From a virus, in the IMG/VR virus record IMGVR_UViG_3300049203_000087, positions 1 to 47,567 of that record: a DNA stretch of 47,567 bases; one strand, written 5' to 3'. Both the position numbers and the translations under genes were made by a program. Positions 6,733 to 39,291 of the stretch are shown here, one piece after another. How positions within the stretch are numbered: position 1 is the stretch's first letter; each line of letters opens with the position of its first letter. The notes beneath the pieces were generated by a model. That model was not told the origin of the DNA. It worked only from the letters and a program-made list of their open reading frames with translations, and searched no databases.

Positions 6733-7129
6733 GGGCTCCACTGTCCGCCTTGTCGGAAAATCGCAGCGCGAGTTTGCCAAGCGCCAGATCGACGCCGCCC
6801 CTGATGGCTACGTCGTGAAGGTTGGCGCGGAGACCCGACGCGATGCGCAGAACCGCAAGCTTTGGCCGATGCTCAAGGACGTGCAGGACCAAGTGCCTGG
6901 CTACGGTTCATTCTCCACGGAAGATATCAAGCTCCGCTTCCTGAACGCGCTCGGTGTCGAAATGCGATTTCTTCCCGAGTTAGAGGGGCAGGGCATGTTC
7001 CCGGTGGGGCTCCGGTCCTCGACTCTCACGGTCCAGCAATTCGCAGGGCTCATCGAGCTTATTTACGCATTTGGCGCTCGCCACAAAGTCCGGTGGAGCG
7101 ACCCCAAAGATGAGAGGGAGGCGGCATGA
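6725..7129 (+). CDS. ninB: NinB-family recombination protein
   Basis: The product is 134 aa, close to the usual NinB length. The typical order is seen: an N-terminal strand-helix segment, the RRDAQNRKLWPMLKDVQDQV helix, a SFSTEDIKLRFLNALG segment, and SSTLTVQQFAGLIELIYAFGARHKVRWSDP at the end. NinB (Orf) binds single strands and SSB and replaces RecFOR function in lambda Red recombination. The ATG at 6725 overlaps the upstream stop by 8 nt. Confidence 0.88.
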   Translation: MAKGSTVRLVGKSQREFAKRQIDAAPDGYVVKVGAETRRDAQNRKLWPMLKDVQDQVPGYGSFSTEDIKLRFLNALGVEMRFLPELEGQGMFPVGLRSSTLTVQQFAGLIELIYAFGARHKVRWSDPKDEREAA

Positions 7130-22362: not shown

Positions 22363-22421
22363 GGCCGCCCTCCGTTGGCGACCTGTACCCCGTGCGACTG
22401 CTTGATAGAAGGGGGCTCCTG

Positions 22422-24539
22422 ATGGCGAGAAGTTCACCCGCCGCCATTGGCAACCTTGCCGTCGATCTGACGATGAACACCGCGTCATTCTCGCGAGGCG
22501 CCAAGGTGGCGCAAACGCAGTTGAGCGGCGTCCAAAAGAGCTTCGCGACGGCCTCCAAGTCTATCGAGGGGGCGCAGGCGCGCATCACCCAATCGATGAA
22601 GGGGATAGCCGCCAGCCTTGGCGTGCTTGGCGTTGGTGCGGCGGGGCGCACGTTCCTTTCTCTCGCCGACCAATCGAAGCAGATGACGGCATCGCTCAAA
22701 CTGGCGACGGCGCAGGTTGGCAATTTCGCGCAGGCCCAAAAGGATGTTGCGCGGCTGGCTGGTGAAACCCGGAGCGGCCTTGTCGAGACGGCGGCGCTAT
22801 ATGGAAACTTCCTCCGCAATGCCCAAGATCTGGGGATTAATCAGACTGAAGCCGCCCGCGCTACGGAGACGTTCTCCAAGGCGATGAAGATCAGCGGCGC
22901 GACTGCTACTGACGCGTCGCAGGGCACCCGTCAGTTCGTCCAGGCGCTTCAATCTGGCGTGCTGCGCGGCGATGAGTTCAACAGCATTATGGAGAATAGC
23001 CCCCGCTTGGCGCGGCTGCTTTCCGAAAGCCTGGATGTTCCAATCGGCTCGCTTCGCAAAATGGCCGAAGAGGGGGAATTAACTTCCGACAAGCTGGTCA
23101 AAGCCCTTACCGATCGCAAATTCACCACGGGTATCGACGAAGAGTTCCGGCAGATGCCCGTCACTTTCAGCGAGGCGATGCAGCAAATCAACAATGCTGC
23201 GATCACGACCTTCGGAGAGTTTGACCGGGGCGGCGATTTCTCAACGATGCTCTCTAATTTCGTCGTGGACGGCTCGAAAGGCTTTGCGGACCTCGGCGCG
23301 CGGGCGCTTGAGTTTGGCGTGCAGACGCGCGCGACGATTGCGGGTCTGTCAAGCGCTTTTTCCCCCCTTTATTCCGCCACGGTCGCGTTTTTCGACTTTT
23401 TCGAAGGGCAAGCGGCCAAATCTGGCATAAATATCAAGCGGGATATCCAAAAGAGCCTTGCCGATATCGATCGGTTTACGGGTTTTGTCGCGCAAAGCTG
23501 GAATGAGAGCATTTTCAGCCCCAAGCGGCTGCTGTTTAACCCCGGCATGGCGTCTGGCACAAATTTCGGCGGAAGAAACCAAGCCGCCAGCGCAGCGAGC
23601 GCCCGGCAATCTCGTGCCCGTCTCGCTGATAGCCAATTGCAGGCATCTATCGGCTACAAAGGCGGCATAGGGAGCGCTTCCGACCTATATTTAAGAGGGC
23701 CGGCAACGGGCGGTGGGCGCCCAACGGCTGTTGATCCCGCGGGCGCAAAGAAGGCCGATGCCGAGGCTAAAAAGCGCCAGCGAGAGCTTGAGAAGGCTGC
23801 CAATGAGGCGCGCAAATTGCAGGAGCGTCTTGACGGCGCGTTCCTGAGCTTCCGACCGGACACAATCGATCAGCTTGAGATGGCGCAGGGGTCGATTGCT
23901 GAAATGGCGCTGGATTCCAGCTTCATGCAGAACGCGATGACAGAGGTGGATTTCGCCATCGGCAAAGTTGGCGAGTCGCTGATGGAGGCGAAGCGGAAAT
24001 CAGACGAGTTCGTCGGCAGTCTTGCGGACGGATTGGCTGATGCGCTGGTGTTCGGTGGCAATCTCGGCGACGTGCTGGTCAACAGCTTCAAGCGCGCGGC
24101 GGCGGAAGCGCTTTCTAACGGTCTATTTGATCTTTTGCGCGGTGGCGCTGGCGGGATCGGCGGCCTTCTATCTTCGGCGGGCAGCCTCTTTGGAGGTGGC
24201 CAGACGGCGGCTCAGCTTGGTATCAACGACTATGGCCGCACTGGCCTTCCCGGCTTCGCAAAAGGCGGCGTGATAGGCGGATTTGGCGGGGTGGATAAGA
24301 ATCTGCTCAGCATCAACGGTATTCCAACCGCCCGCGTCGGGCGCGGTGAGCAACTCCGGATTGAGCCGAACAACGACAACGGCAGCCGTCGGGCACTCTC
24401 CGTCCACGTCACCCCGTCTCCCTACTTCAACGTCGCCGTGCAGGAAGTGGCCGCGCCCATGGTGCAGCAAGGCATGGTGGGCGCGGTCGGGATGGGTGAG
24501 GCGCGGCAAGCGCAGCGGGCGAGGCGGCGGCTCGGATGA
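22422..24539 (+). CDS. Tail tape measure protein
   Basis: The product is 705 aa. Residues about 75-230 match the N-terminal tape measure domain: SLKLATAQVGNFAQAQKDVARLAGETRSGLVETAALYGNF, DASQGTRQFVQALQSGVLRGDEFNSIMENSPRLA, GSLRKMAEEGELTSDKL. A coiled coil lies near residue 450. The C-terminus (SNGLFDLLRGGAGGIGGLL and FAKGGVIGGFGG) resembles the lambda H end. At about 0.15 nm per residue the tail would be near 100 nm. The start at 22422 has a weak ribosome site. Confidence 0.94.
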   Translation: MARSSPAAIGNLAVDLTMNTASFSRGAKVAQTQLSGVQKSFATASKSIEGAQARITQSMKGIAASLGVLGVGAAGRTFLSLADQSKQMTASLKLATAQVGNFAQAQKDVARLAGETRSGLVETAALYGNFLRNAQDLGINQTEAARATETFSKAMKISGATATDASQGTRQFVQALQSGVLRGDEFNSIMENSPRLARLLSESLDVPIGSLRKMAEEGELTSDKLVKALTDRKFTTGIDEEFRQMPVTFSEAMQQINNAAITTFGEFDRGGDFSTMLSNFVVDGSKGFADLGARALEFGVQTRATIAGLSSAFSPLYSATVAFFDFFEGQAAKSGINIKRDIQKSLADIDRFTGFVAQSWNESIFSPKRLLFNPGMASGTNFGGRNQAASAASARQSRARLADSQLQASIGYKGGIGSASDLYLRGPATGGGRPTAVDPAGAKKADAEAKKRQRELEKAANEARKLQERLDGAFLSFRPDTIDQLEMAQGSIAEMALDSSFMQNAMTEVDFAIGKVGESLMEAKRKSDEFVGSLADGLADALVFGGNLGDVLVNSFKRAAAEALSNGLFDLLRGGAGGIGGLLSSAGSLFGGGQTAAQLGINDYGRTGLPGFAKGGVIGGFGGVDKNLLSINGIPTARVGRGEQLRIEPNNDNGSRRALSVHVTPSPYFNVAVQEVAAPMVQQGMVGAVGMGEARQAQRARRRLG

Positions 24540-25949: not shown

Positions 25950-26365
25950 TGGAGATGGTCCGCCGGGCGGCGGCAGCACAGGCGACGCTCGACAAGTTCA
26001 AGGGGAAGCCGTTTCATTTTGGATCGATGGATTGCGCCCAGCTCGTTGCTTTTCATCTCCGCAAGATGGGCCACAAGCCCAAGCTGGCGAAGGCGGGCCG
26101 CTATTCGTCGGCGCTGGGGGCGAAGAAGGCGCTCAAGCGGCTGGGCTATGAGACGCTGGCCGAAGCGATGGACGGCAACGGGTTTGAGCGCATCCCACCC
26201 GCTGCTGCGATCGTGGGCGACGTGATCGAGATGCCGGGACTGGAAGGGCCGGGGGCGCTCGCGGTGGCGCTCGGCAATGGCCGAGCCGTGGCCTATCATG
26301 AGGATGCAATCGGCGCGGTGGTGGTGCAACCCTCGCAGATGCTTGCGGCCTGGCGCGTCACATGA
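25949..26365 (+). CDS. NlpC/P60-like tail peptidase (DUF6950 type)
   Basis: The product is 138 aa. The catalytic Cys is probably in FGSMDCAQLVAFHLRKMG (about residue 31), and a GALAVALGNGRAVAYHED segment gives the His position. Proteins of this place cut peptidoglycan at the tail tip to ease DNA entry. It is shorter than classic NlpC/P60 proteins. The 4-nt overlap with the tip protein gene fits the typical tail-tip order. Confidence 0.75.
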   Translation: MEMVRRAAAAQATLDKFKGKPFHFGSMDCAQLVAFHLRKMGHKPKLAKAGRYSSALGAKKALKRLGYETLAEAMDGNGFERIPPAAAIVGDVIEMPGLEGPGALAVALGNGRAVAYHEDAIGAVVVQPSQMLAAWRVT

Positions 26366-28260
26366 AGATCATTCGAACGGCTGCGACCATTATCGGAGCA
26401 ATCGCTACTGTCGTCGCCGTTGCCGGGACACTGACCGGTAATCCGCTGCTGGCGGCCACGGCGGCAACAGTGGCGAAGGTGGCTGCGGTCGTTGCAACAG
26501 CGGCCACAATCGCGGCCGGAAAGCCCAAGCCAAGCGTCTCTGGCAGTCCAACATCGTTCAAAATCGACCTGCAAGCCCCGATACCCTACATGATCGGCCG
26601 CACCCTGAACGCGGGCTATATCGTTCACCGGGGCTCCTACGGGGCCAAGCAAAAATACCAATCGTTCGTGGCGGTCATCTCCGGCGCGGGGCCAATCGAC
26701 GCGATCGAGGCATTCCAGGTTGACCGCACCACGATCACCTTTTCCGCAGGGGCGGCGACGGGCTTCTATGCGGACTGGATGTGGCTCGATACGCAGCTTG
26801 GAGCCGCGCCCGAAGCGGACGCGCTGGCATCGCCCTTCGCCGGGTTCGCGAGTTGGGATGCCTCATCGAAGCTGTCTGGATACGCGGCGTATCTCTGGAC
26901 TCTGAAGTTCGACAAGAAGGGCAAGAAATACAGCAGCGGCGTCCCGCAGCCGGGCGTGATCGCGCGCGGCGTCAAGGTTTATGATCCGCGCCTTGATAGT
27001 ACCTATCCCGGCGGCTCCGGCGCGCATCGCTCGGACGATGAAGCAACGTGGGCGTATTCGGCAAATCCTTGGCTGCACGCGCTGGCCTGGACGATTGGAC
27101 GCCACCACAATGGCAAGCGCGTCGCGGGTGCAGGCGTACCGATTGACGCAATCGACGTAGCTGCTTTTGTCGAGGCGGCTAACGTCGCGGATACGAATAG
27201 CTGGGTCGCTGGCGGGGTGGTCGATACGAGCCCCGGCCAGAAGTGGAACAACCTCAAGCTGATGGCGCAGGCCGGCGGAGGCGAGCCGGTGCGGATCGGG
27301 GCGCTGGTCTCCTGCACCGTCAACGCGCCGAAGGTCTCGCTCGATACGATCACGTACAGCGACATCGTGGGCGAGGCGACGGTGCCTGCGACGCAAAGCC
27401 GCCGTGATCGGATCAACGGCATCGTCCCGAAATATCGGTCGGAGGATCATGGCTGGGAGGTTGTCCCGGCGGACGTGGTGAGCGTCTCCAGCTATGTGAC
27501 GGAGGATGGCGGGGAGCGGACGCGCGAGATTGACTACCCGCTGGTGCAGGACGTGGACCAGGCGGCGCAGCTCGCGGCCTATGACATCGTGAATGCGCGC
27601 GAGTTCGGGCCGATCAGCCTGCCGCTCAAGATCCGGTGGATAGGGTATAAGCCCGGCGATTGCCTCACGATCAACGTGCCGGAACTGAATCTCGTAAGCC
27701 AGACGGCGATCGTCATCGGCCGCGCGCTCGATCCACAATCGGGCGTGGTGACGTTGACGCTCAAGTCCGAGACGGCGGCCAAGCACGCTTTCGCGCTTGG
27801 GCAGACGGGGGCGGCACCGCCCACGCCTGATCTGTCCACGCCTGATCTGTCGGACGTTGACGCGCCGGACGTGAGCGAATGGAGCCTGTCTGGCACAGTG
27901 CTGAACGGAAGCGGGTTGTCGCTGCCGGCGCTGGTGTTCGAGGGCGCGGTTGATGATCCGAATGCTGAAGCGGTGCTGTTCGAATATTACCAAGGGACGG
28001 CAGCTCCGGTCGATCCGGCGGATTGGGTCTCGGCGGATATGTCAGGACCAGATGTAACCCAGCGGGAAGTGTCGACCATCCTCGGCGGTTCGCCTTATGT
28101 CGGCGCCGTCTCTTATCAGGTGCGCGGCGTGATCGGCGACCGGCTTGTTCTTGGCCCGGTTACTACCGGCGCGGGGTCAACCGGCGGCGGGCGCGTCCTT
28201 CTCGAAACCGGTGACCGCATCCTGCTCGAAACCGGCGATCAAAGACTATTGGAGGCATAA
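26362..28260 (+). CDS. Central tail tip / host specificity protein
   Basis: The product is 632 aa, a short J-like protein. The N-terminus has an Ala/Thr-rich hydrophobic stretch (residues about 8-52), then FKIDLQAPIPYMIGRTLNAGYIVHRGSYG and RGVKVYDPRLDSTYPGGSGAHRSDDEATWAYSANPWLHALAWTIG, hallmarks of tip proteins in alphaproteobacterial phages. A beta domain follows (about 480-600). The extreme C-terminus repeats LLETGDR-like octads. It forms the trimeric tip that contacts the host. Confidence 0.88.
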   Translation: MKIIRTAATIIGAIATVVAVAGTLTGNPLLAATAATVAKVAAVVATAATIAAGKPKPSVSGSPTSFKIDLQAPIPYMIGRTLNAGYIVHRGSYGAKQKYQSFVAVISGAGPIDAIEAFQVDRTTITFSAGAATGFYADWMWLDTQLGAAPEADALASPFAGFASWDASSKLSGYAAYLWTLKFDKKGKKYSSGVPQPGVIARGVKVYDPRLDSTYPGGSGAHRSDDEATWAYSANPWLHALAWTIGRHHNGKRVAGAGVPIDAIDVAAFVEAANVADTNSWVAGGVVDTSPGQKWNNLKLMAQAGGGEPVRIGALVSCTVNAPKVSLDTITYSDIVGEATVPATQSRRDRINGIVPKYRSEDHGWEVVPADVVSVSSYVTEDGGERTREIDYPLVQDVDQAAQLAAYDIVNAREFGPISLPLKIRWIGYKPGDCLTINVPELNLVSQTAIVIGRALDPQSGVVTLTLKSETAAKHAFALGQTGAAPPTPDLSTPDLSDVDAPDVSEWSLSGTVLNGSGLSLPALVFEGAVDDPNAEAVLFEYYQGTAAPVDPADWVSADMSGPDVTQREVSTILGGSPYVGAVSYQVRGVIGDRLVLGPVTTGAGSTGGGRVLLETGDRILLETGDQRLLEA

Positions 28261-28961
28261 TGGCGGACAGCAAAGCGTCTGCGCTCACGGCTGCATCGGC
28301 CCTGAGCGGGGCGGAGCTATGGGCGGCCGTCCAGGGCGGCGCGGATCGGAAGATCACGGCGTCGCAAATCCTCACCTATGTGATGGCGGCGATCGTCGAT
28401 GCGGCGCCTTCAACGCTGGACACGCTGAACGAGCTTGCCGCCGCGCTCGGCGACGATCCGAATTTCGCCACGACCGTGACCACGGCGCTGGCCGGCAAGC
28501 AGCCGCTCGATAGTGACCTGACGGCTGTCGCGGCGCTCGCCACCACGAGTTACGGCCGAGCCTTTCTGGAGCTTGCCGACGCGGCCGCGGCCAGAACTGC
28601 TATAGGTTTGGCGTCCGGCACATACACGCCGACGCTGACGAACGGCGCGAACGTCGCTGCGTCAACGGCTTATCAATGCATGTATATGCGAATAAACGAT
28701 ATGGTTACTGTGGCAGGACGGGTCGATATCGATCCAACGTCAGCCTCAGCAAGCACCATAGTTGGCATGAGCTTGCCCATCGCGTCTGATTTCTCAACAA
28801 CTGACCAATGTGCAGGCGCGGCTAATGCTCCAAACGCGCTCAGCCTGCTCGCGGCAATTGTTTCCGATCCGACCAACAACAGGGCGCAAGTCCAGTATTT
28901 AGCTCCAACTAATGTGGGCAATAACGCACTATACTTTACGTTTATGTATCAAGTGATCTAG
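28260..28961 (+). CDS. Tail fibre protein
   Basis: The product is 233 aa. Residues about 40-95 hold the classic fibre motif APSTLDTLNELAAALGDDPNFATTVTTALAGKQPLDSDLTAVAAL followed by a collar-like GRAFLELADAAAARTAIG helix. The C-terminal 110 residues are a beta-rich tip domain (MVTVAGRVDIDPTSASASTIVGMSLPI). Residues 1-30 are typical for attachment to the tail tip. It probably binds the host surface. Starts at the stop of the tip gene. Confidence 0.88.
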   Translation: MADSKASALTAASALSGAELWAAVQGGADRKITASQILTYVMAAIVDAAPSTLDTLNELAAALGDDPNFATTVTTALAGKQPLDSDLTAVAALATTSYGRAFLELADAAAARTAIGLASGTYTPTLTNGANVAASTAYQCMYMRINDMVTVAGRVDIDPTSASASTIVGMSLPIASDFSTTDQCAGAANAPNALSLLAAIVSDPTNNRAQVQYLAPTNVGNNALYFTFMYQVI

Positions 28962-29428: not shown

Positions 29429-31873
29429 ATGGTTGATGTTGTGAAGCTGGACTCCGCAGGGCTCCGGGGCGCGGGCGCGTATGAGTATTGGATCGCCGAG
29501 GGCAATGTCGGCACGGTCCAGGACTTCCTTGACGCGCAGGAGGCGGCGGCGGCTGCGCAGGTGGCGTTGGCGGTTGCGGCTAAGGACGATGCAGAGACGG
29601 CCGCCGCCGCCGCTGCTGCGTCAGCTTCTGGCTTCAGTGACCTTCAGGTTGAGGCTGGCGTCACGGGGGACGATGTTTCGACCGCGACAATCGGGTCAAC
29701 GACACCTAACACGAATACGCTGACCACGACTGACTTTTCCTATTCGCCCGCCGCCCCCATCGCCGAAGATGGCTATCTGCGCTCTGCATCGATCCGACTG
29801 AGCGCGTCGGGAACGGGGCGATGGCTGATCGTCAACGCGGCCGGGCGCGTCGTTTATGATGAGGCGGTAACGGTCGCTACCACGCCGGAAACCTTCGCTT
29901 TCGACAATATCCCGGTCAAGGCCGGATCGCGGCTGTATTATCGTCAGTTGACTGGTGGGGGGCTTCGTTCCGTCAACGCATCCGGCAACAACTACTATGT
30001 GACAAACAGCACCTATTCCGGGTCTCTCGAAGATGCTGTGACTGTTACGCACAACACCGGCGAGGTTTCGCTGAGTTACGATGTCGCCAGCTTTTCGGAG
30101 AATTTGAAAAGACGCATTGATGACCTTGTCGAACAGGCTGAAAGCGTAAACGACAGCTTGCAGGATAGCTTTCGTGCTAGCCGAATTTCCACCACGAACT
30201 GGACTGCGGCGACTGGCTTCAACCGCTACTATGTCGGCAATGATGTGGGCGCCGATATCCCTGTCGGCGCCGTCATTTCCTCAGTTACTTGCGAGCTGCT
30301 GACGCCTGCGACGGCGACCCATTTGAGGGTGCGCATCTTCTCGCGGCTGACCGCAAGTGGCAATATCAACACGGTTCCAATCCTCGATGAGGACGTGTTT
30401 CTTCAGGCGAAGATAATCGACCCCGCTGACGTTGGGCTGACGCCTGGTGCGACATCCTTGGAAAAGGCCGTTCTTCCGATCGACGCTATCAACGCGGAAG
30501 CCGGGAAAACCTATTTCGCCATTCTCGACGTTTTCAACTCGGCTGAAGCGGCGATCAATTTCGGCCTTGGCTACACGGCATCGACCGAAAGCCGGCAGCG
30601 GAAACGCGGCTGGGTATTCACAACCGTCGTTGTCGCCGCAGATGCAGCCGTTGAAGTGTCGATCGGCTTCTCCGGCTACACGGCGCGCCAGTCTCAAACC
30701 AGCTATGATGACCGGGTTACCAAGGCTGTGGCATCTGCCACCGGGCTTGATCTCACCACCACCGCAACTTTTGATCGCAACGGCGTTCCGACCGAGCTGA
30801 CGGACAGCGCGCGGGCGATCTCGGGTGCGACCAACGTCCGGTATGATACGCTCTATTATGACGCGCTCGCGGGCACGTTCGGCGTCGTTGCTGGCACCGA
30901 TCGCGTAACCGATGCGCCGGAGTTCATCCCGGCAATCGGGGCCTCCACGCGGATTCCGCTGTTCAATTTGAAGGTGACGCCAACGACCGTGACGCCTGTT
31001 GCTGTCTGGGATGTCCATAAAAATGACACCCGCCGGCTCACCGTCCAAGCTGAACAGGATCGGGCCTATTCCCGCCGCTGTCTCAGAACGACGCTGGGCA
31101 AGATCGCGCGCGGCGATGCGCTGTCGATTGTGTCGATCGGGGACAGCATCGTTGCCATGGCCAATGCCAACCCGTCCCAGGCCACACCCAACGGCGACAA
31201 CCGTGACCGGGCGGCGGCGGCAACGACGGACACCTATCATTATCTGCGCGATAACATCGGATCGCCGCTGGGGGCGGGAAACGATATTGTGGACGCGATC
31301 GCGCTCTATACGGCGGTCCAGCTTGGGCGGTCGGCTGACACGGCGGGCACGACGCACACGCGCTTCGGCTTCGTGTGGGATCTGATCGCGGCGCTGGAGG
31401 ACTATGGCTACGTCCTCGGCACGGATCTGACTTACGACAATTTCGGCTATCCCGGCGCTACCACGGCAACGGCGCTGGCGTCAGGGGCGGCATGGCTGAA
31501 CGCGGCCGTCGCGCTGAACCGGGATGTCGCGATCGTCAACTTCGGCATGAACGCCGACGCCTCGCTTGAGGCTAATCTTATCACCATCGCCAATGCCTTC
31601 CACGCAGCGGGCACGGATGTGATCCTGATGGGGCGGGCACGAAAGCGGGCTGATACACTCGCGACGTTCGAAGAATATAACCGCGCGATCCGCCGGGCGG
31701 CCGAATATACGAACAGCGCCTTCGTACCGTACTTGCCGCTCTACGATGAGAAATATATCGGATCGATCGGGCTGGCGGTTGCGGATTGCTGCGTAGCCAA
31801 TGCGAACAATCATCCGGGCATCATTGAGCACGCGGCGATCGGTCGCGAGCTTTCGAAGCTGGTGCTGGGCTAG
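29429..31873 (+). CDS. Large tail fibre/spike with C-terminal SGNH hydrolase
   Basis: The product is 814 aa. The N-terminus (MVDVVKLDSAGLRGAGAYEYWIAEGN) is a tail-binding peptide followed by an Ala-rich coiled coil (residues about 30-70). Beta modules fill residues 80-540. The C-terminal 260 residues are an SGNH esterase: block I SIGDSIV with nucleophile Ser573, GYPGATT as block II, NFGMNAD as block III, and NNHPG as block V where the usual Asp is replaced by Asn. It probably de-acylates a capsule or exopolysaccharide before adsorption. Confidence 0.85.
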   Translation: MVDVVKLDSAGLRGAGAYEYWIAEGNVGTVQDFLDAQEAAAAAQVALAVAAKDDAETAAAAAAASASGFSDLQVEAGVTGDDVSTATIGSTTPNTNTLTTTDFSYSPAAPIAEDGYLRSASIRLSASGTGRWLIVNAAGRVVYDEAVTVATTPETFAFDNIPVKAGSRLYYRQLTGGGLRSVNASGNNYYVTNSTYSGSLEDAVTVTHNTGEVSLSYDVASFSENLKRRIDDLVEQAESVNDSLQDSFRASRISTTNWTAATGFNRYYVGNDVGADIPVGAVISSVTCELLTPATATHLRVRIFSRLTASGNINTVPILDEDVFLQAKIIDPADVGLTPGATSLEKAVLPIDAINAEAGKTYFAILDVFNSAEAAINFGLGYTASTESRQRKRGWVFTTVVVAADAAVEVSIGFSGYTARQSQTSYDDRVTKAVASATGLDLTTTATFDRNGVPTELTDSARAISGATNVRYDTLYYDALAGTFGVVAGTDRVTDAPEFIPAIGASTRIPLFNLKVTPTTVTPVAVWDVHKNDTRRLTVQAEQDRAYSRRCLRTTLGKIARGDALSIVSIGDSIVAMANANPSQATPNGDNRDRAAAATTDTYHYLRDNIGSPLGAGNDIVDAIALYTAVQLGRSADTAGTTHTRFGFVWDLIAALEDYGYVLGTDLTYDNFGYPGATTATALASGAAWLNAAVALNRDVAIVNFGMNADASLEANLITIANAFHAAGTDVILMGRARKRADTLATFEEYNRAIRRAAEYTNSAFVPYLPLYDEKYIGSIGLAVADCCVANANNHPGIIEHAAIGRELSKLVLG

Positions 31874-32463
31874 TGGCAGGCCACCTTCACCCGATCCCGA
31901 TACAGCCTGGCCCCGGCATCGGTCAGATGCACGCCATCGGCGATCGTGAACCCTGCACCCGTGATCGGCTTGACATAGCGGAAGCCTCGCGTGGCGGCCT
32001 GGCTGCGCACGAAAGCGGATGCGGCGGCGCTGTTCGGCACTCCCATGAGGATGACCTTGGCAGGGGGCAGGGCGGCGAGCAGGGCGAGATAGCCACGCTC
32101 AAAGTCGGGCAGGGTGCCGCCGGCCATGAAATCGTTCGTTCCGACTGCAACGAGAATGGTTTTCGGCTTCAGCTTGGGCAGGACGTAGCGGGCGATTCCG
32201 GCAATGTCGTCCACCTTCGCCCCGCCCACCCCGGCGTTGAACCATGTTCCGCAGATCTGCCCGAAATAGACGGACTCCGTGATGCTGTCTCCGAGCGCGA
32301 CGAAATCGACCGGCGGGGCAAGGTCGGCGTTCAGGCGGACGAACCCGGCGCGGGTCTCGGCGTAAGTCGGCGGCGGCGGGCGATGCCACCGGGAATATCC
32401 GACGCCCGCCCCCATCAGCGCAGCCGCGCAAGCTACCAACAGGAAGGATCGAACTTGCCTCAC
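31870..32463 (-). CDS. Minus-strand SGNH hydrolase with signal anchor
   Basis: The product is 197 aa from a GTG; a TTG at 32499 would give 209. The N-terminus RSFLLVACAAALMGAGVGYSR is a signal or anchor segment. Catalytic blocks are VALGDSITES (Ser60), GVGGAKVDD, AVGTNDFM (Asn110), and DGVHLTDAGARLY. It is transcribed against the late genes and overlaps the fibre stop by 4 nt. A host or prophage moron that modifies surface polysaccharide, blocking other phages, is one reading; a convergent virion esterase is another. Confidence 0.85.
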   Translation of the reverse strand: MRQVRSFLLVACAAALMGAGVGYSRWHRPPPPTYAETRAGFVRLNADLAPPVDFVALGDSITESVYFGQICGTWFNAGVGGAKVDDIAGIARYVLPKLKPKTILVAVGTNDFMAGGTLPDFERGYLALLAALPPAKVILMGVPNSAAASAFVRSQAATRGFRYVKPITGAGFTIADGVHLTDAGARLYRDRVKVACH

Positions 32464-32513
32464 TCGCGCACCGTTAGGAACGCCACCTCCTTCCGTCAAC
32501 GGGCGGCCGGCTG

Positions 32514-32855
32514 ATGGACGCCGCAGTCATCACCGCATTGGGCGGCATTCTAACCATCCTCGGGGGAGGTGTCGCCTTCGTGTGGGGCAAGATCGAAAAG
32601 CGTTTTTCCGCGATCGAGAAGAAGCTGGAGGAGTGTGAGGAGCGGGACGTTAAAAACCGCTCCCGCCTTGCCGAAGTTCTTTCGATTCTCCGCATGATGG
32701 CGGACGAGATGCACGCCAGCGATCCGACGAACCCGCTGCTGAAGTCGGTTCGGATGGTGCTGCTGAAGGCATACCCGGTTCCGGCGGACATGACCGAAAC
32801 ACTGAACGGGCTCGACCGGGCTCCGATGTACGCGACGGACGGGAGGGAGGTTTGA
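32514..32855 (+). CDS. Single-span membrane protein of the lysis cassette
   Basis: The product is 113 aa. Residues about 4-26 are one transmembrane helix (ITALGGILTILGGGVAFVWG), then a coiled coil to residue 65 (KIEKRFSAIEKKLEECEERDVKNRSRLAEVLSILRMM). The place directly before the endolysin suggests a holin or pinholin-like partner, though topology resembles spanin-like or DUF-type proteins as well. It overlaps the endolysin gene by 4 nt. Confidence 0.7.
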   Translation: MDAAVITALGGILTILGGGVAFVWGKIEKRFSAIEKKLEECEERDVKNRSRLAEVLSILRMMADEMHASDPTNPLLKSVRMVLLKAYPVPADMTETLNGLDRAPMYATDGREV

Positions 32856-33235
32856 GCATCACACTGGGCTCGCGAAGCCTGTCGCGCCTTGAAGGCGTAC
32901 ATTCCGACCTCGTTCGCGTCGTGAAGAAAGCGGCGGCGATGTCCTCGCTCGATTTCACGGTGCTGGAAGGGCTGCGGACCAAGGCGCGGCAACAGCAGCT
33001 ATTTCAGAACGGCGCGACCAAGACGATGAACAGCCGCCACCTGAACGGCCACGCGGTCGATCTGGCGCCGATGATTGGTGGCACGGTCTCATGGGATTGG
33101 CCGCTCTACCACAAGCTCGCCGCCATCGTGAAAGCCGCCGCAGTTGCTGAGGGTGTGCCGATCGAATGGGGCGGGGACTGGCGAAGTTTCAAAGACGGCC
33201 CGCATTGGCAACTACCTTGGAGCAAGTACCCATGA
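32852..33235 (+). CDS. M15-family peptidase endolysin
   Basis: The product is 127 aa from a TTG start overlapping the upstream stop. The zinc site of L-alanyl-D-glutamate peptidases (M15C, like phage T5/A500 enzymes) is present: SRHLNGHAVDLAP supplies His and Asp, and the downstream DGPHWQL supplies the last His. It cuts the peptide cross-links of peptidoglycan at lysis. There is no signal peptide, so it depends on a holin. Confidence 0.92.
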   Translation: MSITLGSRSLSRLEGVHSDLVRVVKKAAAMSSLDFTVLEGLRTKARQQQLFQNGATKTMNSRHLNGHAVDLAPMIGGTVSWDWPLYHKLAAIVKAAAVAEGVPIEWGGDWRSFKDGPHWQLPWSKYP

Positions 33236-33432
33236 TCACCGAAAACACCTCCGCCATCCCTGAGCAGCTTGCGAGCACGCTCCGGGCGTTTCTGATCGCC
33301 CTGGGGGCGTACCTCGCTGGCAAGGGCTGGATCGACGAGGGGCTTGCCTCTGCGACTGTCCCGCTCATTCTTGTGGGCGGACCCTGGGTCTACAATCAAA
33401 TGAAGATTCGCAATCGGCACAAGGCGGGCTGA
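33232..33432 (+). CDS. Putative holin
   Basis: The product is 66 aa. Two short hydrophobic stretches (TLRAFLIALGAYLAGKGW and SATVPLILVGGPWVYNQM) flank an acidic turn, and the tail is basic. This matches small holins found beside M15 endolysins in alphaproteobacterial phages (Pam3 gp28-like). The ATGA overlap with the endolysin supports the lysis cassette. Confidence 0.7.
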   Translation: MITENTSAIPEQLASTLRAFLIALGAYLAGKGWIDEGLASATVPLILVGGPWVYNQMKIRNRHKAG

Positions 33433-33899
33433 TGCTCTCCGGTCCCCGCCTCTACGCCGCGCTCGGCACGGGCCTGCTCATCGCCGCGCTGGTGGTGGCG
33501 CTGGTGGTGACGCGGGCGCGCCTTGCGTCGGTTCGAACCGCCCACGCCGCCGAACTGTCTGCGATCCGTGAGCGCATTGCGGAAGCGAAGGCCGCCGATC
33601 TGGCCCATGCTCGGGCCGTCGAGGCCGCACAGAGCGAAACCAATCGAAAGGTATCAGATGCCTACCAAGCTGATCTTGCTACTCTCAGGGCTCGCCTTGA
33701 GCGCCTGCGCACATCAACCGCTCAAGGTGGTGGCGGAACAGCGAGTGTGCCCAGCCTTCCCGTCGCCCCCTGCCGATCTGATGCAGCCCCCTCGGGTTAC
33801 ACGGTTTCTCCCGAACTGATGTTCGAGGCCGAAGCGAACACGCTGCAACTGACCGCGCTTCAGGCGTGGGTGAAAGCCCAAGAGGACATCGCCCGATGA
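33432..33899 (+). CDS. Inner-membrane spanin (Rz-like)
   Basis: The product is 155 aa. An N-terminal transmembrane segment (residues about 8-27, ALGTGLLIAALVVALVVT) is followed by a long Ala/Glu/Arg coiled coil (28-100) and a periplasmic C-terminal part. This is the i-spanin design. A lipoprotein frame nested in +1 at 33658-33819 is the o-spanin. Together they fuse inner and outer membranes at lysis. Confidence 0.85.
   Translation: MLSGPRLYAALGTGLLIAALVVALVVTRARLASVRTAHAAELSAIRERIAEAKAADLAHARAVEAAQSETNRKVSDAYQADLATLRARLERLRTSTAQGGGGTASVPSLPVAPCRSDAAPSGYTVSPELMFEAEANTLQLTALQAWVKAQEDIAR
33658..33819 (+). CDS. Outer-membrane spanin lipoprotein (Rz1-like), nested in Rz
   Basis: The product is 53 aa, wholly inside the Rz frame in a different phase. 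Residues 1-16 are a lipoprotein signal peptide ending in the lipobox LSAC (MPTKLILLLSGLALSAC). The mature part is Pro-rich (CPAFPSPPADLMQPPRVTRFLP), as for o-spanins. Full nesting matches lambda and P2-type architecture. Confidence 0.82.
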   Translation: MPTKLILLLSGLALSACAHQPLKVVAEQRVCPAFPSPPADLMQPPRVTRFLPN

Positions 33900-34510
33900 G
33901 CGGACTATCTCTGAGCCTCGGGCTTGGACTGACGGCGCTTAGGGCAGTCGCCGCCGCCCCCTCACTGCTCGACAATTTCACCGACGCGGACACGACCAAT
34001 CTTTCGGCTCACACTGCGGACAGCGGCGAGGCATGGACGGCGACTGCCGGCGCGGTGCTGATCAATGGCAACAAGGCCTATCCATCGACGGTGACAGCAC
34101 TTTACCGCTCCGCATGGGAGCCGCCGAGCGCCGAATATGATGTCGAGGCTGTGATCGAGTTCAAGACCATCATCAATCAGGCGGTCTACATCGTAGCGCG
34201 CTGCGCAGACGCGAGTAATTTCTACTATGCGGGCAAGCACGCGACCACGCACAAATGGGTGTTCGGCAAGAATGTGGCCGGCGTGTTCACCGAATTAGGC
34301 ACCCACGCCACCGGGCCTTCCGCCGGAAATAGCTACACGCTCCGGCTTGAGGTTCGTGACGCTACCAAGACATTCTACGTCGATGATGTGCAAATAGGGC
34401 AAAGCGCTGACAACGCGTTGACCGCAGCGCAGCGTCCCGGCATCCGAGCGGCAGCGGTCGCCAGTACAACGACGACTGGCGCGCACTACGACAGGCTGCT
34501 GGCGGCATGA
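33896..34510 (+). CDS. Putative receptor-binding protein with lectin-like fold
   Basis: The product is 204 aa. It starts with MSGLSLSLGLGLTALR, shared exactly with the next protein. The body (LLDNFTDADTTNLSAHTADSGEAWTATAGAVLINGNKAYP, FKTIINQAVYIVARCADASNFYYAG, SYTLRLEVRDATKTFYVDDVQIG) looks like a concanavalin/LamG-type beta-sandwich that binds sugar. ATG overlaps the Rz stop by 4 nt. A tail-fixed adhesin or capsule-binding protein is likely. Confidence 0.65.
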   Translation: MSGLSLSLGLGLTALRAVAAAPSLLDNFTDADTTNLSAHTADSGEAWTATAGAVLINGNKAYPSTVTALYRSAWEPPSAEYDVEAVIEFKTIINQAVYIVARCADASNFYYAGKHATTHKWVFGKNVAGVFTELGTHATGPSAGNSYTLRLEVRDATKTFYVDDVQIGQSADNALTAAQRPGIRAAAVASTTTTGAHYDRLLAA

Positions 34511-35871
34511 GCGGGCTGTCACTGAGCTTGGGGCTGGGCCTGACCGCATTGCGGCCAAGCGGCTTTTCCCCTCTGACACTGCCCACGCTCTATGTCGCGG
34601 GTGCGTCGCTCGAATCCCGCAATCATGGCGGCGACGCATCTTCACGCTTCGGTCATAGCTGCGTCGGACCGCTCACATGGGCGAATATGCTGGACGCCGA
34701 ACGGCTGTTCGATCTGCGCGTGGCGAAGCTGGCTGGCGTCTCGCCATACTGGCAACCGGGAACGAACTTTGCCGGGTCGGGCGCGAGCTATGGCGCTGCC
34801 GGGTCGTTTGGCAGCTCGATCGCCGACCAGGCGGCCGAAGTGGCGGCGGCGATCACGCCCGGTTCGGCGGTCTATTGCTCGCTCGGGCGAAACGATCTGC
34901 CGACTGTCACGGCAGCCGAATATCTCGACAATTTCGATACGTTCATCGCCACGATCCGGGCGGCGGCACCATCGCTGATTATCGTTCCCGGCCTGTGGAA
35001 GCGCGACACGTCGGCGGGCGGGACATGGGCGAGCGGCGGCACATCGCGGCAGGACGTGGACGATATCAACGCCGGCATGATCACACGCTGCGCTGCCTAT
35101 TCGAACATGGTCTATGTCGAGCTGCAATCGGTCATGTGCGACGCGGCCGGGGACCAGAACCCGAAATCAGGCTACACGGTCGATGGCGTCCACCATACGC
35201 CTCTCGGGGCTTATGTGGCGGGCAAGGCGATCAAGGCGGCGCTGGCGAACTATATCACCCCCACCGCCTTCCCGGCGCGTTCCGGCGACGACCTGTTGAC
35301 CGATCTTTCCGGAACGGGCGGCACGTTGACCAATGGCACGACTGGCTCGGTAGCGGACGACTGGACGCTGCTGCGTGGCGCTGCCGGTGACGCTATGGGC
35401 GTGGCGGGGGCTCGGTTTGCCGAAGGTGGCAAGGAGTGGCAGCGGATCACCTGCACGCGGGCGGCGACGCATAGCGGTGGATCTGACAGCTTCACCTTTC
35501 GACCAACATCGGCCCTCTCAATTCCGAGCAGCGCCAACCTCGTGGCGCGGGCGCGCATCCGCGTTCCGATCACCACAGTCGTCCAGATGTTTCACTATGG
35601 GCTGACGGAATTGACGTCGGGGGCGACGCAGCGGTCGGGCGCGATCTTCGGCACGACGGATGGGCAGGACGCGGTGATTGCGGATGGCGCGGCCATTCTC
35701 GGCTATGCGAGCAGCGAGGCGCTGGATCTGTTTGTCGAGACCCCTGTGCTCGTCACGCCATCGGGAAGCACGCGGACGGGTGACGTTCGTTTTTCCAACG
35801 CGATGAACCAGGGCACGGCAGGGACGACGGCTGTGTACGAAATCACCGATCTCCAGTTGGAGCCGGTATGA
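34507..35871 (+). CDS. Putative receptor-binding SGNH hydrolase
   Basis: The product is 454 aa. It begins with the same 16 residues as the previous protein. Residues about 25-250 are an SGNH hydrolase with an altered block I (YVAGASLE, Ser34), block III CSLGRNDLP (Asn129), and block V YTVDGVHHTPLGAY (Asp226, His229). Residues 265-454 are a beta-sandwich probably for carbohydrate binding (DLLTDLSGTGGTLTNGTTGSVADDW). It is the last late gene, before the transposon. Confidence 0.82.
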   Translation: MSGLSLSLGLGLTALRPSGFSPLTLPTLYVAGASLESRNHGGDASSRFGHSCVGPLTWANMLDAERLFDLRVAKLAGVSPYWQPGTNFAGSGASYGAAGSFGSSIADQAAEVAAAITPGSAVYCSLGRNDLPTVTAAEYLDNFDTFIATIRAAAPSLIIVPGLWKRDTSAGGTWASGGTSRQDVDDINAGMITRCAAYSNMVYVELQSVMCDAAGDQNPKSGYTVDGVHHTPLGAYVAGKAIKAALANYITPTAFPARSGDDLLTDLSGTGGTLTNGTTGSVADDWTLLRGAAGDAMGVAGARFAEGGKEWQRITCTRAATHSGGSDSFTFRPTSALSIPSSANLVARARIRVPITTVVQMFHYGLTELTSGATQRSGAIFGTTDGQDAVIADGAAILGYASSEALDLFVETPVLVTPSGSTRTGDVRFSNAMNQGTAGTTAVYEITDLQLEPV

Positions 35872-36564: not shown

Positions 36565-37206
36565 TTGAACCTCGCTGAAGCATTCCTTCTTGACCAGATC
36601 CCGGTGGCGCAGCGCGCGGTGGTTCCGACTACCCTTAAGAATGCCTATGCAGCCGCTACGCTCGTGACCAAGGACGAGCCCATCTTCAATGTCGAAAGCG
36701 CGAAGGCCAACCGAGGTCGGATCATCCAATGGGCGGTCGACACTGCTTTCGAGAAGCTGGTGAAGAGCGGACAATGGGGGCGAGATTTCCGTTGGCGCTC
36801 ATTCGAGAAGCCGACAGGACGATATCTAGAGGTGCTTTTCAGCCATTCGGCGCTTACCATCAGCCAGGTGTCAAATCCCGCCAAGCAACCTCGCGATGTT
36901 GGGTTTCGCCGCAACAAGCGCCTCGCTAGCCAGATCAAGATGGATATCTTGCGCGATGAGCAAGAAGACACATCCGGTCTCCCCCATATCTTGCTTGTCC
37001 ACGGCCACCAGTCGCTGGACTTCGCCCATCTGGCGATTCCAGAACCAATCCACTGGCAAGGATTCCAGCACAAAACAGCAAATTTGATGCTTATGGCTCA
37101 CGCTGTACCAGAGCCCGAAATTCCGATGGAGCATACCGATATAGACGCTGTGATGACCCTCAAGGAAGAAATTGATAGGTGGCGGCGTGACGGCGGATCA
37201 GAGTAA
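36565..37206 (+). CDS. Uncharacterised 213-aa partner of the XRE/ImmA protein
   Basis: The start is TTG at 36565. The protein is soluble and mixed alpha/beta with no transmembrane segment; a GLPHILLVHGHQSLDFAHLAIPEP stretch lies near residue 140 and a FRWRSFEKPTGRYLEVLFSHSALTI strand pair near residue 76. I recall similar proteins paired with ImmA/IrrE proteins in other bacteria but know no function. The next gene overlaps it by 20 nt, so the two are coupled. It could be a toxin held in check by its partner, or a protease substrate. Confidence 0.65.
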   Translation: MNLAEAFLLDQIPVAQRAVVPTTLKNAYAAATLVTKDEPIFNVESAKANRGRIIQWAVDTAFEKLVKSGQWGRDFRWRSFEKPTGRYLEVLFSHSALTISQVSNPAKQPRDVGFRRNKRLASQIKMDILRDEQEDTSGLPHILLVHGHQSLDFAHLAIPEPIHWQGFQHKTANLMLMAHAVPEPEIPMEHTDIDAVMTLKEEIDRWRRDGGSE

Positions 37207-38365
37207 TATATTCGAGTTTCCAGCCGCTCGTTCCAGCCGGAGCGGGCGGCTTTTGATTCCTGCGCGCCTACGTGACGCGAGGAAGTTCTTGCGCTTGTCG
37301 CAGGAGGAGTTGGGGGAGCGCATTGGCGTCTCACGACAAGCCATTTCGCAATTCGAACGCGGGGATAGATCGCCAGATGCTGCCACTTTTGCGGCTATTG
37401 TTGAGGCTCTAGAGCAACCACCTGGATTTTTCACCACCGAGGATGCGCCCGTCTTTGGCCGTTACTCGACGCGGTTCTACCGCAAGTTCGGTTCTGACAC
37501 TGCTCGGCGGCGCGATGCCTGCGACACATACGCAGAGTGGTTTGTGCAGGTAGCCAAGACGTTCGATGACGCAATCAATTATCCCGCAGTCAATATTCCT
37601 CAGTATGATCTATCGGAGTTCGGCGAGGATGGGATTGACGAGATCGCCGAACGGGTGCGTGCAGATTGGGGACTTGGGCTTGGCCCTATCTCCAATGTGC
37701 TAGCGTTACTTGAGTCAAACGGAGTCATCGCTTGTCGTTACGAGATGGCCGGCGAGAAGGTGGAAGCTTTCTCGTTTTGGAATGGCCCACGCCCCTTCGT
37801 TTTCATGGCGTCCGAAAAGAAAGCTGGAGTTCGTTCACGTTTCGACTTGGCGCACGAACTGGGGCACCTTGTGATGCACCGGCACATCGACAGCGCCGAC
37901 ATAGAAGATCGCGAGTCTCTCAAAGAAGTTGAGCGTCAGGCAGATCGTTTCGCCGGAGCATTTTTGTTGCCGAAGCACTCGTTTCCCAATGAGGTTTTCA
38001 CTCCGAGGCTTGACGCATTTGTTGATCTAAAACGCCGCTGGAGAGTGTCGATTCAAGCAATGATTTACCGATGCTCTGATCTTGGGATTTTCGACGAAGG
38101 TCAAATTCTCAATATGAGGAAGCAAGTTTCCTTTAGAAAATGGCGGACGCAAGAGCCCCTGGACGATCCCTCGATCATCGCCTTGGAAAACCCGCGCCTG
38201 CTATCCAAAGCGTTCGAACTTGTGGCGCAAAGTGGGCGCATGGGAGTCGACGAGTTGAAGCGAGCGGTTCAGATAAACCCCCGCTTCATAGAGGCGATGT
38301 GCAATCTTCCCGAAGGAGCGTTGGCGGGCTCCGACCCACCTCTGAACACCCCCACTTTGAAATGA
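37187..38365 (+). CDS. XRE regulator fused to ImmA/IrrE metallopeptidase
   Basis: The product is 392 aa from a GTG, overlapping the upstream gene. Residues 28-78 are an XRE HTH ([33 protein letters not shown]). The ImmA/IrrE (COG2856) domain has the zinc motif HELGH at residues 223-227, with a downstream Glu-rich helix ([16 protein letters not shown]) supplying the third ligand. The C-terminal 100 residues resemble the conserved tail of such regulators. Such proteins cleave or sense a partner in toxin-antitoxin, stress, or mobile-element control. Confidence 0.9.
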
Positions 38366-38374
38366 GCGTAATGC

Positions 38375-38403
38375 TTGACACTAAGCATAAAAGTTCATAT
38401 CAA
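38375..38403 (+). promoter_or_regulatory. Transposase promoter
   Basis: TTGACA (38375-38380), 17 nt, TATCAA (38398-38403), placed a few bases before the ATG at 38410. If it is used, the mRNA would be almost leaderless, which may limit transposase levels. Confidence 0.5.
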
Positions 38404-38409
38404 ATGGGT

Positions 38410-39291
38410 ATGAACAAGCTTCCTCTCGCCAAGCGCACTCAGATCCTCGCCATGCTGTGCGAGGGTTCGTCCATGCGCTCGATCAGCCGCGTTGCGGACG
38501 TGTCGATCAACACGGTGACGAAGCTGCTGGAGGATGCCGGGGAAGCCTGCCTCGCGCTTCATGACGAGATGGTGCGCAACGTGAAGGCGAGCCGCATCCA
38601 GTGCGATGAAATCTGGTCGTTCTGCCACGCCAAGCAAAAGAACGTCGCCACGGCGAAGGCTGCTCCGGAAGGCGCTGGCGACGTGTGGACGTGGACCGCG
38701 ATCGACGCCGACACAAAGCTGATCGTCTCCTACAATGTCGGCGATCGGTCTGGCGAAAGCGCGATGGATCTTATGGACGATCTGCGCAGCCGCCTCGCCA
38801 ACCGCGTCCAGCTCACCACGGACGGCCACAAGGCCTATCTGGAGGCCGTGGAAGGCGCGTTCGGCGCGGACGTGGACTTTGCCCAGCTCGTGAAGCTGTA
38901 TGGCCCCACGATCGCCGCTCCGGGCCGATACAGCCCGGCAGAATGCACCGGGACCAAGAAAATCCGTCGCGAAGGCAATCCGGACATCGATCACGTCTCG
39001 ACCAGCTACGTGGAGCGCCAGAACCTCACCATGCGGATGTCCATGCGTCGGTTCACCCGGTTGACCAACGGCTTCTCCAAGAAGCTCGACAATCACATTC
39101 ACGCGCTGGCGCTCTATTTCGCCTTCTACAATTTTTGCCGCATCCATAAGACGCTGCGGATGTCGCCCGCGATGGCAGCGGGGATCAGCGATCGGCTGTG
39201 GTCGCTGGAGGACATCGTTGCGCGGATCGACGCGGCGGCTCCGGCTCCCAAGGCTCGCGGCCCTTACAAAAAGCGCCAGCCCGCCTGCTAA
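38410..39291 (+). CDS. IS1-like DDE transposase
   Basis: The product is 293 aa. An HTH occupies residues about 8-40 ([34 protein letters not shown]). The DDE triad is D66 in QCDEIWSF, D138 in TTDGHKAY, and E202 in [25 protein letters not shown] names this group IS1-family in many alphaproteobacteria, and the ends of the element start as in IS1; IS1595 is another possible family. Other in-frame starts at 38362, 38371 and 38404 exist. It is the only transposase in the element and probably moves it. Confidence 0.9.

Follow-up and report, generated by a model that had tools for sequence, protein, structure and literature searches.

A 16-residue leucine-rich N-terminus on unrelated phage proteins as a candidate virion-attachment peptide

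Results

Gene content of the window

The stretch of DNA analysed here, referred to as the window, is an IMG/VR virus record of 47.6 kb that encodes a siphophage-type tail module and a lysis cassette composed of an M15 endolysin, a Phage_holin_10 protein and an Rz-like protein with nested Rz1, which is followed by two genes that begin with the same 16 residues (Table 1). With 71% identity between its endolysin and that of Caulobacter phage DMCA, the virus probably has an alphaproteobacterial host. The Rz-like gene that precedes the first tag copy is 81% identical in L172. According to the PHROG scan, the J-like protein and the fibre are encoded by separate genes. The J-like protein ends C-terminally with the repeat RVLLETGDRILLETGDQRLLEA (28180-28260), and a similar repeat, FLIDTDGAYLTDQDGAYLLEAA, ends the 47-aa tagged product of phage DMCA (L167:5327-5470); the two strand repeats are possibly related. 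Downstream of the tagged genes (37172-39291), there are an HTH plus IrrE-like peptidase gene and then an IS1-type transposase gene.

Table 1. Positions of the genes and features discussed (in the window unless a locus is named)
Feature	Position	Strand	Remarks
Tape measure	22392-24539		siphophage-type tail module, tail-tip genes also present
J-like protein	26362-28260		
Fibre	28260-28961		
M15 endolysin	32852..33235	+	PF13539 E 1.7e-12, phrog_465 E 4.8e-61; upstream of the tagged genes
Rz-like i-spanin gene	33432..33899	+	after holin and endolysin; TM start, coiled-coil-like body
Rz1-like lipoprotein	33658..33819	+	MPTKLILLLSGLALSAC...; nested in Rz, other frame; lipobox read from sequence
204-aa tagged protein	33896..34510	+	
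Tag copy 1	33896..33943	+	MSGLSLSLGLGLTALR; begins the 204-aa protein; ATGA overlap with the Rz stop
454-aa tagged SGNH/GDSL-type esterase	34507..35871	+	PF13472 E 1.2e-7, phrog_6102 lipase E 2e-14
Tag copy 2	34507..34554	+	MSGLSLSLGLGLTALR; N-terminus of the 454-aa esterase; start overlaps stop of the 204-aa gene (ATGA)
Small all-beta protein, ~100 aa	L008:7165-7485, L144:2143-2454, L007:12346-12666, L167:4995-5324		

Two copies of the tag on unrelated proteins

Both ATG starts, at 33896 and 34507, open with MSGLSLSLGLGLTALR, and the bodies behind them are unrelated, without any mutual match, which agrees with the initial annotation that had described an identical 16-residue start on two unlike proteins. 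The list of open reading frames also contains the first tagged gene as a longer form with a GTG start (33866), but the ATG at 33896 is preferred because of the ATGA overlap, an AGAGGA-like Shine-Dalgarno sequence and the matching starts in relatives.

The differences between the two copies, previously estimated at about 12, amount to exactly 12 of 48 nucleotides, are distributed over 10 of the 16 codons, and are all synonymous. Only ~32% of the single substitutions in the tag stretch are synonymous, and when 12 substitutions were placed at random, the peptide was not kept in any of 200,000 trials (the independence bound is ~1e-6). The identity of the copies is 36/48 within the tag and 2-6 of 12 per 12-nt bin on either side. 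As the divergence is entirely synonymous and as the tag recurs in unrelated phages, the sequences argue well for selection on the peptide and not for recent copying, as had been proposed.

The first body, that of the 204-aa protein, has no Pfam, PHROG or significant PDB profile match, and this includes jelly-roll and LamG/concanavalin-like lectin profiles. Its AlphaFold model is unusable (pLDDT 33), as there are too few relatives, and none were found in IMG/VR. The body resembles the end of a long Microcystis phage protein and a Rhizobium phage protein, neither of which has the tag; the N-terminus of the Rhizobium phage relative is a different one, and the aligned part begins only behind the tag. 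Because the relatives lack the tag and the alignment begins past it, we read the tag as a separate module that is joined to existing bodies.

The second body has the profile as well as the Ser, Gly/Asn and Asp-His blocks of SGNH/GDSL hydrolases. With 32.8 bits, the PF13472 match is just below the curated cut-off of 32.9, and the motifs GASL, GRND and DGVH (DGVHH), as read from the sequence, are kept, with the Asp of GDSL replaced by Ala. The term "receptor-type", which had been applied to both proteins, thus holds only loosely, as the second is an SGNH/GDSL-type esterase and the first gives no Pfam or PHROG match. A tblastn search of INPHARED with the esterase gave no match, and none was found in 200 Sphingomonadaceae genomes, a search of little weight. 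The window contains three separate SGNH/GDSL-type domains (29429-31873, +; 31870-32499, -; 34507-35871, +); the second starts with a hydrophobic N-terminus of its own, and its gene lies in reverse orientation between the tail genes and the lysis genes.

Occurrence of the tag

Tag patterns were scanned over IMG/VR, and the following counts refer to the fetched loci. The patterns fix most Leu positions and therefore exaggerate the uniformity of the tags, and one pattern also prescribed Arg at position 16; the Arg16 of the window, L003, L004, L153 and L187 was not prescribed. There were 60 distinct matches, 44 of them in open reading frames shorter than 150 aa, 3 of low complexity, and 13 in long and complex open reading frames. 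Relative to the stop of an upstream open reading frame, eleven of these 13 start at -4 to +8 nt, and the other two have no such neighbour. The coupled bodies comprise an SGNH esterase, proteins with virion/tail PHROG matches (L140, L144, L198) and others without informative match. Pfam gave no match for most tagged bodies. A single tagged gene was present in most of the phages, compared to two in the window. Phages with the same peptide pattern differ widely in GC content (36-70%). Related starts are also present in isolated phages, namely in DMCA_023 of Caulobacter phage DMCA and in an SGNH gene that follows the lysis genes of Rhizobium phage RHph_Y25. The search that had been suggested for the start in phages, and for what follows it, found the tag in front of unrelated bodies in IMG/VR loci, and related starts in isolated phages.

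In cellular genomes, the strict tag was searched in 399 Sphingomonadaceae and 297 Oricola-order genomes, and only an Oricola match looked real, the others being low-complexity or unrelated starts. A looser pattern gave 9 matches in 385 Alphaproteobacteria genomes, and a pattern scan of GTDB returned mostly simple repeats among the matches listed. With the tag alone, tblastn gave no match, as expected for a short low-complexity query. In Ruegeria atlantica (L036, minus strand near 7072), an Mrr-type nuclease gene beside a UvrB-like gene begins with MPGLSLGLGLGLTNN, which is probably a chance occurrence outside a phage. No description of the motif was found in the literature searched under motif strings.

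Exchange of bodies behind the tag

In three phage groups, the tag is retained while the body changes. The first group consists of the window and L171 (IMG/VR 3300049180_000025, of which L003 is a part). The end of Rz and the tag of L171 resemble those of window copy 1 (54/60 and 41/48 identical), and this copy-1-like tag beside the lysis genes runs directly into the esterase of copy 2, which is likewise 454 aa long and 94% identical to the window esterase after the tag. The L171 tag and window copy 2 differ at 12 of the 48 bases; identity is ~77% over the adjacent 48 bases, and the following ~130 are almost identical. Because the tag and the adjacent 48 bases have diverged while the ~130 bases thereafter are nearly the same, we conclude that the esterase body was shared recently, and that the start, including ~16 residues past the tag, has a separate history. 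The window lineage may have gained a body-plus-tag unit, or the L171 lineage may have lost one.

The second group (L008, L009, L010, L011 and L153; 37-47% GC) has a TM-protein gene in common, which lies immediately upstream, and the tagged proteins begin with MS[GA]LGLGLGLGLG. With L011 as reference, identity is 75-96% in the first 48 nt and ~12-44% in the bins that follow. The bodies are different proteins, and only those of L010 and L153 are related to each other. The tagged bodies of L009, L010 and L153 contain short repeats (SVITGDITGMKLTYL..., NTISGKLPTDWKSM...) of leucine-rich-repeat character.

The third group, L004 and L187, which are both fragments, shares the endolysin region (86.8% over 869 nt) and a 47-nt island (89%) at the tag; the sequence immediately before the island does not match, and neither do the bodies. 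The tagged product has 47 aa in L004 and ~905 aa in L187, where the gene preceding the tag encodes an Rz1-like protein. Occurrence by chance only, which would have spoken against the initial annotation, probably applies to the Ruegeria nuclease and is disfavoured by the exchange of bodies behind the tag in these three groups.

A small all-beta neighbour

A small protein precedes the tagged gene directly or at a distance of 1-2 genes in L007, L008-L010, L140, L144, L153 and DMCA, with related sequences in all of them. It was modelled as an all-beta jelly-roll (pLDDT 80). Many phage proteins without assigned function are similar to it, and it is widespread in phages. As it was not detected in the window, L171, L004 or L187, the last two being fragments, it cannot be the only acceptor of the tag, and it was set aside as a general partner. 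The scanned tail proteins of the window gave no match to a T4gp10-like or other adaptor domain in Pfam and PHROGs, with HMM scans that can miss such a domain.

Discussion

A probable docking function of the tag

We consider it probable, at roughly 0.6, that the 16-residue start is a virion-attachment peptide, i.e. a shared plug behind which adhesin or enzyme bodies can be exchanged. This reading fits the sequences best because three independent phage groups keep the tag in front of changing bodies, because of the tail and lysis neighbourhoods and the upstream coupling, and because the tag is not signal-peptide-like. In such a mechanism, the tagged genes would be coupled to the preceding gene by the ATGA overlap, any body placed behind the tag would be carried by the particle, and recombination could replace the bodies behind the tag. 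One phage could then carry two tagged proteins at once, which would be an adhesin-like protein and an esterase-type protein in the window. The peptide has Leu at positions 4, 6, 8, 10 and 12, separated by Gly/Ser over ~ten residues, and then Arg at 16, and this alternation suits an extended strand with one hydrophobic face. The hydrophobic strand-like segment might insert into a tail acceptor, perhaps as an added beta strand, which is the detail that we prefer, albeit tentatively and with more doubt than confidence. We infer from the sequences that the tagged proteins would be present in the virion and dock there to such an acceptor. That relatives of the 204-aa body occur in untagged form was counted for docking. 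Counted against it were the position of several tagged genes behind the lysis genes instead of in the tail operon, the search for an acceptor, which found none, the chance occurrences of the motif, and the search patterns with their fixed Leu positions. The docking of alternative adhesins, as it had been proposed for the two proteins, therefore stands as the best-fitting explanation, as the tag is kept with changing bodies, whereas the further assumption that both would use the same virion site is an extrapolation. In its boldest form, the model would be a widespread donor-strand-like plug of tailed phages that are unrelated and infect different hosts. Interchangeable adhesins and enzymes would be attached through it to one common acceptor, with tag-body cassettes that can be stacked within a genome; in this generality the model is rather unlikely.

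What alternatives exist? The tag could be an unusual export or membrane-targeting signal, by which accessory products reach the host envelope in lysogeny or lysis without being parts of the virion. Indeed, the tagged genes are preceded by holin/spanin genes in the window, L171, L004, L187 and Rhizobium phage RHph_Y25, and by a TM-protein gene in the L008 group, and the PHROG of the esterase is classed as moron. The peptides themselves, however, do not agree with such a function. In 16 of the 17 tags examined, there is no K/R in the first five residues and hence no basic n-region; the first K/R comes after the hydrophobic part, usually at position 16, and the uncharged run covers ~7-18 residues. 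The hydropathy over 19 residues is below 1.6 in 16 of the 17 tags, which is too low for a membrane helix, Arg16 follows directly, and none of the 17 has a Cys or a lipobox. The combination of basic n-region, core and cleavage site or lipobox that characterizes Sec/Tat or lipoprotein signal peptides is thus not found, and both signal-peptide and membrane readings fit poorly, including the cleaved signal peptide that would have contradicted the initial annotation. We therefore regard an export function as improbable.

No more can be said for a self-association or folding element that trimerises the bodies or pairs the two tagged proteins without contacting the virion itself. The alternating Leu-Gly/Ser pattern would suit strand pairing between chains, and two tagged proteins of one genome could mix, but the bodies are very different in size and kind, including the 47-aa products in L004 and DMCA, and a single tagged gene per phage is the usual case, which leaves this with a slim chance. 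It is very improbable that the stretch matters as DNA, i.e. as a recombination boundary or translation-coupling element with the peptide as by-product: bodies do change near the tag, L004 and L187 have their island of identity there, and most copies either overlap with the upstream gene or lie next to it, but the window copies differ at 25% of the bases with unchanged peptide, and the peptide pattern is the same in phages of widely different GC content. Low-complexity convergence or a functionless remnant of an old duplication is hardly credible, since, common as Leu/Gly repeats are as simple sequence and in spite of the many short or low-complexity matches, all 16 residues would not survive such DNA divergence without selection, and the exchange of bodies in three groups had already disfavoured this reading.

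If the tag docks, receptor-binding or polymer-degrading proteins of the exchangeable kind could be recognised by the 16-residue motif where nothing else identifies them, as most of the tagged bodies do not match Pfam. Such genes could then be found by a simple sequence criterion even outside the tail operon, and the tag would allow one to test how phages replace host-recognition parts while keeping the attachment.

Comparison with known systems

Short N-terminal docking peptides are known from the E. coli phages K1-5/K1E, Salmonella phage SP6 and the Klebsiella KP32, KP34 and Menlow groups; hepta- and undecapeptides (7-11 residues) attach the second receptor-binding protein in K1-5/K1E/SP6, and the hydrophobic peptide of KP34 viruses is MALxxLV (PMC6872550). 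Like these peptides, the tag is a very short, conserved and hydrophobic N-terminus with exchanged bodies and more than one copy per phage. The proteins with unrelated bodies have this N-terminus in common, and the window has two peptide-bearing proteins, which corresponds to the K1-5/KP32-type arrangement of at least two such proteins per phage, or of an anchor plus a second receptor-binding protein. The tag has a different and longer sequence (~16 residues) with alternating Leu-Gly/Ser, and in contrast to the known cases the window is siphophage-type, no T4gp10-like adaptor was recognised, and the genes may follow a lysis cassette. By analogy, the tag may well work like these docking peptides.

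In chaperone-usher pilins, a short N-terminal donor-strand extension with alternating hydrophobic residues completes the sheet of an acceptor. In a similar way, the tag, a short N-terminal segment in which hydrophobic residues alternate with others, could add a strand to the sheet of an acceptor, but no usher, chaperone or pilin domain was seen, the systems are not homologous, and the likeness is one of sequence pattern.

The protein gp63.1 of E. coli phage G7C is an SGNH-type esterase, as is the second tagged protein of the window. Its N-terminal part binds another tail protein, gp66, and it uses a positively charged surface that binds to a T4gp10-like domain (PMC6872550). The tag segment, in contrast, is hydrophobic, and the window has no recognised T4gp10-like domain. 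The tag would be a new sequence variant of a known docking principle and not a new kind of system.
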